Assembly (NCBI GenBank): GCA_945889175.1 | Contig: CAMDBF010000002.1 | Coordinates: 1 to 64,000 of the forward strand | DNA from: Rickettsia typhi | GTDB lineage: Bacteria; Pseudomonadota; Alphaproteobacteria; Rickettsiales; Deianiraeaceae | Reading direction: 5' to 3' | Length of the DNA stretch: 64,000 nucleotides | Shown: positions 6,641 through 59,741 of the stretch, piece by piece | How the letters are laid out: the number at the start of each line of letters is the position of its first letter | How positions within the stretch are numbered: position 1 is the first letter of the stretch | Translations under genes and position numbers: made by a program | The notes under the pieces: generated by a model | Seen by the model: only the letters and a program-made list of their open reading frames with translations | Databases searched by the model: none | What the model was told of the DNA's origin: nothing

Positions 6641-9600
6641 TTAAGTAATGGATCTGTTAATATCAATTTTGGAAGTTGTAGCTATTGTAAAACCTAAAGC
6701 CTTAATGATATTGGTAACATGCTTAATCTCTTCTTTGTTTAAGACTCTGTCCATGCGTGCTTTAAGATATTTATCAAGCACCTGATAGCCACCAATTTTA
6801 AACTCCCAGATGTCTGGGGAGACTTTTTCAAAATAAGTCTCTTTGTTGATATGTAATGTTTTATTGACATAGTTGTAGTCTGGTTTTTGCACTATGATAT
6901 TATCAAAATTTGGTGAATAACATTCGCCAATGTCAAGCTTAGGAATTTTACGCATTAGGTGTGCCTCAATAAGCTCCTGCCCTATTACTGCTAGGCGATA
7001 GAACTCCTCTGGGGTTACATTAAAATTAATCCGCGGAAAGTCAATTTTCAAAAGTTCCAAATACTTTGCACGGTAGCTTGGTGAGTGCATTTGTGCATAA
7101 ATAAAAGCTAAAACTTCCTCGGGGGAGGGGAGTTTGCTGTCGTATAAAATTTTAAAGTTGTAATTGATATCCTTGCAAATCTCTACATCCTCACGAACGG
7201 AGCCCGAATGAAATATTGAACTAACATCGTATTCTAAAGTCTGCCCCATAGCAACAACCTCCTCTGTGGGTATAAGGCTGTAACCGTAACCATGGTAGTC
7301 TTTTTGTAAAGAGTTTTGTAAAGAGGTGTTTTTTACATCCTCTTGCTTAGGGGCATTAAAAATGTTATGTAACTTTGCTACAAAATCGGGCTTAAAGTTT
7401 GGTATTTTTTGCTTTTGCTTACCTGCAATTTGCAGTTTTTCTTCTAGCTTTCTAGTCCTGTTTTTAAACTCAAGCCTGCTAAGGGGTTGTTCTAGATTCT
7501 CATTTTCTTTTTCAAGTCTTGTAAGCTCGTCTTTAATAATTTCCTCCTCGCTTTTGTAAAGGTAGAGTGCGGCGATATAGGATCCAAGGGTAGCTTCACA
7601 CATTTTACATTCTGATATGTAGTTTGTAACAAAACATGAATCAATCGTCATTAAGTTTGTCATCCTTGCAAAACATAGCCCAATGTTATCTAACAACATG
7701 TGTTGCATAACATCGTTTCTTGTTCTAAAAAGCAGCTTGCTATCGTAGTAAGTTTTACGAATATCAAATGGTCTATACATAATATTTTTCACATTGTCTT
7801 TATAATAATTTTCTACTTTGTTGCAAAAATTATCTTCAAATGTTATAAAATTTTTATCATCGCCAGTCATTAAGCCACTTGTATATTTTGCAAAAATATC
7901 CGTCAAACCCCAAAATTGACCGTATTCAAGCATTGCGGTTGCCTCTTGCATGGGGGCAAAAAACGAGAGGTCATCTTTAAATCTTTCCTTACCCCATTTG
8001 GTAGAGCGGAAAGCTTTGTTGAAATTGTGAATGTCAAGCCTTGCAAACCCCGCCTGCGACTTTGTCGCATCCTCCCCTAAGAGGGGAGGAGTAAATAACG
8101 GACTTGTCGCATCCTCCCCTAAGAGGGGAGGAATGCATAGCGGATACCCCTCCCCTTTTAGGGGAGGCTGGGTGGGGTTGTTTAATATAATATGTTGTAC
8201 TGAATTTTCATTAAGAGCGTTTTTAAGAACTTCAATACAATTATCTAAATTTTCATAAATATCGTTATTCCAAAATCTAATTACTCGAAATCCTTTTTCG
8301 CTCAAATCCTCATCACGCTTTTTGTCATTTAGATTTTCGTAGTGTTGCCCGCCATCAATTTCAATGATTAATCTTTTTTCAAAACATACAAAATCTACAA
8401 TATATTTATCAAACAAAGGAGATTGCCTTCTAAATTTAACTCCAAGCTGCTCTTTGTTTATACTATACCAAAACATTTTTTCATATTTTGTCATATTTTT
8501 TCTTAGCTCTTTTGCTAAATTGTTCATGTTTTTTGATGCTTTTAAGATGTTATTTAACCCCGCCTGCGACTTTGTCGCATCCTCCCCTAAGAGGGGAGGA
8601 GTGCATGATGGATACCCCTCCCCTTTTAGGGGAGGCTGGGTGGGGTTGTTACCAAGCCTCAACTCGTAAAGAAATTTAAACTTATTACTTCTTTTACCAT
8701 AAATATCAATGTGAAAAATGCCTTTGTCCTTAATGCTATCGTTTTTTACAAGTATTATAATACAAACCCCTTGCATTATGTCAAATACATTTTGGTCCAA
8801 AGAGCCATCGGGCGATGTCTCTTTTATTCTTGAGTTGCCGTGTAGGTCAATGATGTAGATTTTATCAAAATCCTTCATTATTTCATTCCTCATCTTGCGG
8901 TGAGTGAGCCCCTTTAAAAAAGAATTATTAACTATAACGCCAATAACGCCCCGCCCTGCATTGGCTATCTTTTTATGTGCAAAGGCTATAAATTTTATAT
9001 AGTCATCCTCAATGTTTCCTTTGGATTTCTCGTCTTTTGGTTTATAACTATCATGAAATACTTTTAAATCGTTTGTATCATGTAAAACATTTTGCGAGGA
9101 GACATTATAAGGCGGATTGCCAATAATTGCTATTATTTCCTTATTATCCTTGATTTTATTAGCTTCCCTGCCTTCCTCCGCAACCGCCTTGGCAAATAAG
9201 TTTGTTTGAATATCCTTTTTGTTTTCAAGAGTATTTGTTAGATAAACTCCGATTCTTTTATTATCTTTAGCCCCGATATCGTAGCCTTTGTCTTTTAAAA
9301 ATTGACTAAGCTTAAGATGGGATATTATGTAAGAGGAAATCATTATTTCAAAGCCATAAAAGTTTGCAAGCAAATGCTCTATTAAGTCGTTATGGGTGTT
9401 GGAGCCTTTTGAACTACCTTCCAAAACTTTTTTGTAGCTTTCAAACAAAAATGTTCCCGTTCCGCAGGCAAAGTCTAATAGTTTTATTTGATTGTTTTTA
9501 AGTCCGCCTTCCAAGTTAAAATCCTCTTGTAAAATATCCGAAACCTGATTAACAATAAACTGCACCACTGCAGGCGGGGTGTAATAAACCCCTCGGTTCA

Positions 9601-10618
9601 CTCTTGACTCTGCATCGTATTCTTTTAAAAAGTATTCGTAAAAGTATATATAAGCATCCTTTTCGGCATCGGTATTTGAGGAGCTTAAATTTTTTGCAAC
9701 CTCAAAGGCATCTATATTGTTAATAACTGATAGTATGTTTTCAACCGCCCATTTAATCTCCTTGTGTTTATCTTCGGAAAGTAAATCTAAAAATTTACTA
9801 AGAGTTTTAATAAGCGAAAAAGCCTGTGGAATATGGTCTTTTGAGTTTCTAATGCTTAAAATTGTGTTTGTATTGAGTTTTGCCAAAAAGATGGAGTAGG
9901 TAAGCATTTGAGCAAAACCATCGGCAAAGTCTTGAGTTGCAAGCTCTTCAAACAAACCTTCCTTAAATATTTCGTAGACGGCATAAAGCTCATCTTGAAT
10001 CTCCTTATTTTTAATCTGTAATTCAACTTGCTCTGCAATGTATTTTTTAAGCTCTATTGAAGGTCTGGCTAGCTTTTCAGCGAGTACCTTTGCACTTGCT
10101 ATTTTATCGGGCTCTGTGCTGTAAAATTTAGCAATTAAATTATAGACTTCTTTTGCTTTTTCCTCACTTAGTTTAAACTTTGCATCATATAAATCCTTAG
10201 CATCGCAAAGCCTCACTCTTACAGGCTCACTATCCTTGTAAATCCAAATCCATTCAAGATAGTCGGTCAAGATTAGATTTTCCGAAAGCTTTTTGTATTT
10301 TTCAATCTGCTTTGACTTAAGGACTTTATTTAGATTTTCATCAATTTGTTTGTTTTCAATGTATCCAATAACTGTATGTTGTTCCGTATGATTTACAGTA
10401 AAATCAGGGGCACCAAAGCCATCCTTGTTTTTACCTTGCCTTGATTGCTCGTTAATAGCCTGTGCATTAAATTCACCTAGCTTTGCAATCTCTGTTAAAA
10501 GAGTATTTAAATACCCCCTGTCTGTATGCTCGGTTTTATCCTGTATTGTAGTTTTGGCAAGGGATGTTATGTATGTATTAAAGACTTCTAATGGCATTTT
10601 AATAAACAAAAAACTCAA
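6641..10618 (-). CDS. Type IIG-like restriction-modification enzyme (N-terminal PD-(D/E)XK-like nuclease plus N6-adenine methyltransferase) with in-frame DUF559 cassette
   Basis: APDFTVNHTEQHTVIGYIENKQ (PD..ExK-like), GVYYTPPAVVQFIV, LLDFACGTGTFLFE (motif I), AIIGNPPYN (motif IV); no helicase motifs seen; internal insert NNPTQPPLKGEG..DUF559..KSQAG. Confidence 0.88.
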   Translation of the reverse strand: MSFLFIKMPLEVFNTYITSLAKTTIQDKTEHTDRGYLNTLLTEIAKLGEFNAQAINEQSRQGKNKDGFGAPDFTVNHTEQHTVIGYIENKQIDENLNKVLKSKQIEKYKKLSENLILTDYLEWIWIYKDSEPVRVRLCDAKDLYDAKFKLSEEKAKEVYNLIAKFYSTEPDKIASAKVLAEKLARPSIELKKYIAEQVELQIKNKEIQDELYAVYEIFKEGLFEELATQDFADGFAQMLTYSIFLAKLNTNTILSIRNSKDHIPQAFSLIKTLSKFLDLLSEDKHKEIKWAVENILSVINNIDAFEVAKNLSSSNTDAEKDAYIYFYEYFLKEYDAESRVNRGVYYTPPAVVQFIVNQVSDILQEDFNLEGGLKNNQIKLLDFACGTGTFLFESYKKVLEGSSKGSNTHNDLIEHLLANFYGFEIMISSYIISHLKLSQFLKDKGYDIGAKDNKRIGVYLTNTLENKKDIQTNLFAKAVAEEGREANKIKDNKEIIAIIGNPPYNVSSQNVLHDTNDLKVFHDSYKPKDEKSKGNIEDDYIKFIAFAHKKIANAGRGVIGVIVNNSFLKGLTHRKMRNEIMKDFDKIYIIDLHGNSRIKETSPDGSLDQNVFDIMQGVCIIILVKNDSIKDKGIFHIDIYGKRSNKFKFLYELRLGNNPTQPPLKGEGYPSCTPPLLGEDATKSQAGLNNILKASKNMNNLAKELRKNMTKYEKMFWYSINKEQLGVKFRRQSPLFDKYIVDFVCFEKRLIIEIDGGQHYENLNDKKRDEDLSEKGFRVIRFWNNDIYENLDNCIEVLKNALNENSVQHIILNNPTQPPLKGEGYPLCIPPLLGEDATSPLFTPPLLGEDATKSQAGFARLDIHNFNKAFRSTKWGKERFKDDLSFFAPMQEATAMLEYGQFWGLTDIFAKYTSGLMTGDDKNFITFEDNFCNKVENYYKDNVKNIMYRPFDIRKTYYDSKLLFRTRNDVMQHMLLDNIGLCFARMTNLMTIDSCFVTNYISECKMCEATLGSYIAALYLYKSEEEIIKDELTRLEKENENLEQPLSRLEFKNRTRKLEEKLQIAGKQKQKIPNFKPDFVAKLHNIFNAPKQEDVKNTSLQNSLQKDYHGYGYSLIPTEEVVAMGQTLEYDVSSIFHSGSVREDVEICKDINYNFKILYDSKLPSPEEVLAFIYAQMHSPSYRAKYLELLKIDFPRINFNVTPEEFYRLAVIGQELIEAHLMRKIPKLDIGECYSPNFDNIIVQKPDYNYVNKTLHINKETYFEKVSPDIWEFKIGGYQVLDKYLKARMDRVLNKEEIKHVTNIIKALGFTIATTSKIDINRSIT
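8046..8180. repeat. Palindromic repeat copy A (contains 42-bp internal tandem duplication)
   Basis: aaccccgcctgcgactttgtcgcatcctcccctaagaggggagga...acccctccccttttaggggaggctgggtggggtt; tgtcgcatcctcccctaagaggggagga occurs twice. Confidence 0.9.
8556..8650. repeat. Palindromic repeat copy B
   Basis: aaccccgcctgcgactttgtcgcatcctcccctaagaggggaggagtgcatgatggatacccctccccttttaggggaggctgggtggggttgtt. Confidence 0.9.
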
Positions 10619-59416: not shown

Positions 59417-59486
59417 ACCCCTCCCCTTTTTAGAGTAAGTAGTCAAAATAACCTCTCCCCTCTTAGGGGAGGCTGGGTGGGGTTTT
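59417..59486. repeat. PPLKGEG-type palindromic repeat, intergenic copy
   Basis: acccctccccttttt...cctctcccctcttaggggaggctgggtggggttt. Confidence 0.75.
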
Positions 59487-59514
59487 AACAGAACTTAAAA
59501 AATACACTTCAAAC

Positions 59515-59660
59515 ATCCCCATTAAACACACGCCCGCTGCCCCCATTTGATTAAAAAGTGCCAGCTAAGGGGCGGGAGCCTGTGTGTTAAGTTTGGTAAG
59601 TAGCTTTATGTTTTTGCATGACTTTGGAAGTAATATTTAAAGTTAATAGAATGGTAAGAG
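59515..59660. repeat. Dispersed palindrome-containing repeat, copy 2 (inverted relative to 6290-6440)
   Basis: Reverse complement aacataaagctacttaccaaacttaacacaca matches aacataaagttatcttactaaacttaacacaca at ~6338. Confidence 0.7.
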
Positions 59661-59673
59661 GTATAATGTATAT

Positions 59674-59741
59674 TACCCAACCCAACCTCCCCTAAAAGGC
59701 GAGGAGTTGTTGACGAACAATCTACCAAAAGGGGAGGAGTT
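59674..59741. repeat. PPLKGEG-type palindromic repeat, intergenic copy (degenerate)
   Basis: acccaacccaacctcccctaaaaggcgaggagtt...ccaaaaggggaggagtt. Confidence 0.65.

Follow-up and report, generated by a model that had tools for sequence, protein, structure and literature searches.

Hundreds of genomes contain BoxC/triplex repeats, which were already known in the 1990s and have been linked to instability. REP elements are likewise short palindromic repeats, often found as inverted pairs, and have a dedicated DNA enzyme, the RAYT transposases. Rickettsia palindromic elements (RPEs) are ORF-compatible palindromic insertions within genes and, to our knowledge, carry no nuclease. In E. coli K-12, BoxC repeats are always intergenic, and remnants of transposases or integrases were never found beside BoxC/triplex repeats, which carry TTA or CCG second loops and form inverted pairs (Holder et al. 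2015, PMC4666352). The Rhizobium-specific intergenic mosaic element (RIME) has been annotated as a repeat of unknown function (PMC2573895), and one DUF559 gene has been assigned to the EDxHD homing-endonuclease family (PMC9403480).

Here, we describe a DUF559 nuclease cassette enclosed by repeats of this kind, which lies within a restriction enzyme gene in a 64,000-nucleotide stretch of DNA (positions 1 to 64,000 of contig CAMDBF010000002.1, hereafter the window). Its repeats resemble the BoxC/PIT/TM family in their three blocks (a pyrimidine tract, a purine tract and a third purine strand), their GC-richness, their inverted pairing and their bacteria-wide occurrence (PMC4666352), and some copies also have TTA or CCG second loops. 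In contrast to the published repeats, which are described as intergenic in E. coli K-12 and as lacking a mobility gene, window-type repeats bracket a nuclease and are translatable within genes. RIMEs are likened to them by layout, since a short spacer separates their two opposed units, and RIME-like pairs bracket DUF559 in Sinorhizobium. The homing endonuclease I-Bth0305I (PDB ID: 3r3p) is similar to DUF559 in predicted fold and by profile match; however, the DUF559 element is without an intron or intein, shows no extra DNA-binding module, is bounded by repeats and stays in frame unspliced. Inteins with homing endonucleases are also nuclease inserts that sit in frame within essential genes (DnaE, helicases, synthetases), but a Pfam scan of the window's host ORF matched no intein/Hint splicing domain, and the cassette ends are DNA repeats. 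The REP/RAYT pairing differs in its enzyme, since RAYT is an HUH transposase and DUF559 has an unrelated restriction fold.

The host gene matches Pfam Type_ISP_C and N6_Mtase as well as the PADLOC model REase_MTase_IIG (E 5e-209), and its features are collected in Table 1. The initial annotation had described an ORF that stays open throughout, and the translation is indeed continuous over both repeats and the insert. It had further described two GC-rich palindromic repeats in the same orientation around a complete DUF559 domain. The repeats are direct and 93–95% identical, and the domain is complete (PF04480; 111.8 bits against a curated cut-off of 20.6, E 2e-32), but each repeat consists of two opposed hairpin units rather than one palindrome, and the spacer measures 373 bp instead of 375 bp.

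Table 1. Features of the host gene and the inserted cassette in the window.
Feature	Position	Strand	Remarks
Host ORF	6641..10618	(-)	1325 aa; Type IIG/ISP restriction-methyltransferase; frame open across insert
Host N6-adenine methylase domain	8867..9655	(-)	aa 322-584; Pfam scan
Host Type ISP C-terminal specificity domain	6695..7822	(-)	aa 933-1308; Pfam scan
Inserted cassette	8051..8647	(-)	aa 658-856; 597 bp; missing from G009 homologue
DUF559 (EDxHD/Vsr-like) nuclease domain, predicted	8213..8530	(-)	aa 697-802; conserved E, D, ExD, H residues
Repeat copy 1	8046..8182	.	Downstream side of host gene; 42-bp duplication extra
Repeat copy 2	8556..8650	.	Two opposed units, short spacer between; RIME-like layout
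Perfect intrastrand-triplex motif	8149..8178	(+)	CCTCCCCT-TTT-AGGGGAGG-CTG-GGTGGGGT
Second perfect intrastrand-triplex motif	8617..8646	(+)	Identical to the motif at 8149-8178

An empty site is provided by the homologue in G009, a member of a different genus in the family; over the first 650 residues, this homologue is 46% identical to the window protein. It reads ...GKRLKKLRSLPALDINS/FEKLDITGFNKAFRSTKWG... (junction ...PALDINS/FEKLDITGFNKAFRSTKWG..., the slash marking the junction), while at the same point the window protein has ...GKRSNKFKFLYELRLGN[199 aa]GFARLDIHNFNKAFRSTKWG.... In the alignment with G009, the edges of the 597-bp insert coincide with the outer repeat ends within a few bases. 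Because a homologue of the same family has this clean empty site, with a gap matching the outer repeat ends, positions 8046–8650 of the window are an in-frame insertion of about 600 bp. Contrary to what ancestral architecture would imply, the domain is absent not only from G009 but also from the homologues in G001 and G007 and from a paralogue in the window's own genome (G000:C6). At the window and Sinorhizobium sites, the flanks are too diverged and no target-site duplication was recognised; the DUF559 element insertions yielded no target consensus. A shared AGGCTTG string at the window site was considered as a duplication and is explained by the coding similarity of the flanks. The structure model of the host enzyme, built from five sequences, has a pLDDT of 48, which is too poor to judge whether the insert loops out. 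In the paralogous restriction enzyme (L092, G000:C6:12000-17000), other repeat peptides in frame (NPPLEGG...GRGL) give the impression that solo repeats had been inserted there.

The window repeats are compound. On one side of a short spacer lie a G-rich arm, a small hairpin and a CCTCCCC/GGGGAGG hairpin, and facing them on the other side are another such hairpin and an arm. In copy 1, the G-rich arm, small hairpin and BoxC-type hairpin are followed by a 42-bp duplication and then by the second opposed BoxC-type unit; the duplication of one hairpin accounts for the additional 42 bp of this left copy. In the window, 14 occurrences of the hairpin core compare with a chance expectation of 0.11 (largest count in shuffled sequence 1), and the repeat motif has about 60 copies in the 1.16-Mb genome, which has only one DUF559 domain. 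The two perfect 8-triad Y-R-R' motifs have the three-block form used to define BoxC/TM repeats with class II triplex potential and, judged by their sequence, the window repeats are predicted intrastrand-triplex motifs of the BoxC/PIT/TM type. They had been compared with the ORF-compatible palindromic elements of Rickettsia; they are translatable in frame, as that comparison held, but the architecture that they match is that of BoxC/triplex repeats. Opposed copies of CCCTCTCCC-loop-GGGAGAGGG-linker-GGGGTGAGGGG mark DUF559 boundaries in many phyla. Terminal inverted repeats are present at most of the DUF559 loci scored (see below), and in the window the compound repeats stand in direct order. 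Loss of the TGA-bearing arm, taken as a sign of coding adaptation, did not differ in embedded copies (p 0.63 overall, 0.57 in the order). Elsewhere in the window, at 59429-59704, an opposed pair of the same triplex motifs about 250 bp apart lies between two genes and is probably a non-autonomous (MITE-like) copy. Many contigs of this genome end about 100–500 bp from a repeat, within a longer shared sequence TTAGACCTCTTCCTTAACCCC... (L005-L031), and the assembly is therefore probably interrupted there by a high-copy element.

The DUF559 alignment contains 14 invariant columns, including E23, D52, E63, D65 and H69. The structure model of the domain (pLDDT 91) matches NGO0050, the catalytic domain of I-Bth0305I, AbaSI and Vsr, with 3hrl, 3r3p, 4par and 1vsr among the best PDB matches, and a profile search agrees for NGO0050 and the I-Bth0305I catalytic domain. 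Based on the modelled fold and the conserved acidic and histidine residues, the insert is predicted to be an EDxHD/Vsr-like endonuclease; the fold family of DUF559 already counts a homing endonuclease among its members. The nuclease is maintained under purifying selection, with a median dN/dS of 0.136 and a value of 0.053 for one pair that lies within ValRS.

A search for DUF559 bracketed by this repeat at other loci, proposed with the initial annotation, was successful. Triplex motifs, scored as the pyrimidine-purine-purine motif, lie on both DUF559 flanks at 74/132 loci from many phyla compared with 0/776 control placements within the same loci; this count comprises 30/58 loci of the window's order and 44/74 of a wide set, of which at least four are, under public names, the same places as loci in the order set. 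For a motif in either flank, Fisher p values were 1e-32 (order) and 7e-50 (wide set), bearing in mind that the wide set was picked by similarity to the order's DUF559 and that related genomes are not independent. Shared inverted repeats exceeded the 99% control level at 50/58 (order) and 62/75 (wide set) loci. Among 218 genomes of the order, the motif occurs in 35/47 genomes with DUF559 and 19/171 others (p 7e-17), and the co-occurrence stratified by family gives an odds ratio of 7.8. The 19 repeat-bearing genomes without a strong DUF559 may in part be explained by incomplete genomes. About 20–35% of DUF559 loci have no recognisable triplex motif, and the majority of repeat copies lie well away from any DUF559 gene.

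Outside the order, the DUF559 gene ycjD of E. coli has triplex motifs directly downstream in finished genomes. An E. coli strain without ycjD (L277) was inspected as a possible clean empty site and rejected, because the region upstream of fabI, which in other strains contains sapF, ycjD and triplex repeats, is occupied by an efflux operon and regulator. A DUF559 gene of Sinorhizobium is flanked on both sides by RIME-like pairs, and the corresponding site in Shinella is empty; the 759-bp gap extends beyond the repeats by about 20 bp on the left and about 18 bp on the right, the junction being approximate. Plasmid copies were also screened for strain-level empty sites: those of Azospirillum were all occupied, and Sinorhizobium gave one usable empty site, that in Shinella.

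In the window's order, 43 of the 58 usable DUF559 loci are in frame within long ORFs, and the same cassette is found in frame in about 20 unrelated genes of related bacteria (host genes were named from NCBIfam/Pfam matches). IleRS and ValRS account for 22 loci. The other hosts in the order are DnaE, RecG, RecJ, RecO, PriA, Mfd, CarB, TlyA, LipB, RdgB, HolC, the CCA-adding enzyme, TsaC, YkuD and a PglX-like methylase, with in-frame fusions closer to one end in GltB, AhcY and Pth; outside the order, BioA, IspE, PriA and HsdS were found. The restriction enzyme that hosts the window cassette is incidental. The inserts in RecG and PriA are in variable loops and missing from genomes of the same genus, while those in IleRS use two loops, 6 and 9 times, with several origins in the tree, a pattern that could reflect reuse of a target site, as in homing, but that a permissive loop would equally produce. 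Because well-supported sister nucleases occupy different host genes, the nuclease tree indicates that DUF559 cassettes have moved; the window nuclease itself is placed next to a stand-alone gene of a family member. With the empty site and some 20 unrelated hosts, the earlier idea of a composite, homing-like mobile cassette that brings its own nuclease and has repeats compatible with translation is supported.

We consider it probable that these loci represent a widespread selfish element, consisting of an EDxHD/Vsr-like nuclease ORF between opposed BoxC-type triplex repeats, that is copied by host repair and retained in frame, and from which solo repeats derive. Such an element would land as a clean insertion and, when it reaches a protein loop in an ORF-compatible frame, would be tolerated, read within the host protein and kept. 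The nuclease may nick or break DNA, either at the target or at the triplex/hairpin end, and host repair would then copy the element. Residence in an expressed, often essential gene would secure expression and prevent loss by imprecise deletion. Solo and paired repeats, such as BoxC, RIME and the roughly 60 copies in the window genome, could then be non-autonomous derivatives of the nuclease element. More tentatively, and with somewhat less than an even chance in our judgement, this may be a previously unrecognised pan-bacterial mobile class, in which an EDxHD nuclease recognises triplex-forming ends, moves BoxC/RIME-type repeats in trans and persists unspliced and in frame in essential proteins.

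The main alternative is that DUF559 is a passenger, and that triplex repeats spread by replication slippage, recombination or an unknown enzyme, carrying the nuclease along whenever two repeats bracket it. The excess of solo repeats over the single DUF559 of the window genome and the existence of repeat-bearing genomes without a strong DUF559 fit this explanation, as does the 2015 study, which links the repeats to instability and names no enzyme (PMC4666352). Nevertheless, we regard it as unlikely, since across many phyla it is the same nuclease family that stands between the repeats, this nuclease is under purifying selection, and one fixed family is not expected of a passenger. Adaptive domain fusion, in which a second nuclease domain would have been acquired by the restriction enzyme for use in defence, could account for the several hosts that are restriction or methyltransferase genes (the window, L117, L158, L160, L175 and L211). 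Most hosts, however, are housekeeping enzymes without a defence role, homologues without the domain exist and the ends are marked by repeats, which makes this explanation very improbable.

A known-type RPE that happens to hold an ORF is likewise very improbable. In-frame palindromic insertions are familiar from Rickettsia genes, but the present repeat, set against RPEs by description, fits the BoxC/triplex architecture and extends beyond the window's order, the same ends bounding DUF559 in Sinorhizobium, Thiobacillus and others and adjoining ycjD in E. coli. An assembly artefact or chance arrangement might be suspected in a metagenome-style draft genome of 54 contigs, many of which end in a repeat. 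Nevertheless, neither the two repeats nor the insert interrupt the frame, the same layout recurs in dozens of independent genomes, and ycjD with its adjacent motifs is known from finished E. coli genomes; because of these independent copies, this reading is refuted in practice and its probability is negligible.

The nuclease family bracketed by BoxC/triplex repeats provides a candidate enzyme for them, and repeat dispersal becomes directly testable. The data suggest that the DUF559 cassette is a mobile partner for the BoxC repeat family, whose spread was unexplained. In the open-access literature, we found no link between DUF559 and palindromic repeats, whether by way of DUF559 itself, COG2852 or in-frame inserts, and a combination of triplex-repeat ends with unspliced in-frame residence and a nuclease was not found described there. 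Natural synthetase, helicase and replicative polymerase genes carry nuclease inserts of 100–200 codons with the frame open, a tolerance otherwise tied to inteins. For annotation, the DUF559 'fusions' reported by pipelines are probably inserts.

Several individual loci show further peculiarities. Two RecG inserts (L135 and L104) share the same site in two genera and are absent from close relatives, and the tree does not group their nucleases as sisters; this may reflect homing or a permissive loop. In Binatia and Nitrospira genomes, a Type I specificity subunit carries DUF559 inserts (L175 and L211) at what appears to be one and the same site. The IleRS of the window genome (L276, G000:C3:9900-14200) was rejected as an insert-free reference, as inspection by eye revealed two in-frame acetyltransferase-like (GNAT) inserts, one of them in the loop that holds DUF559 in relatives. 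Finally, in one ValRS host (L111, G128:C22), repeat-encoded peptides arranged in tandem (KPSPLGRGLGEGTTE) precede the nuclease.
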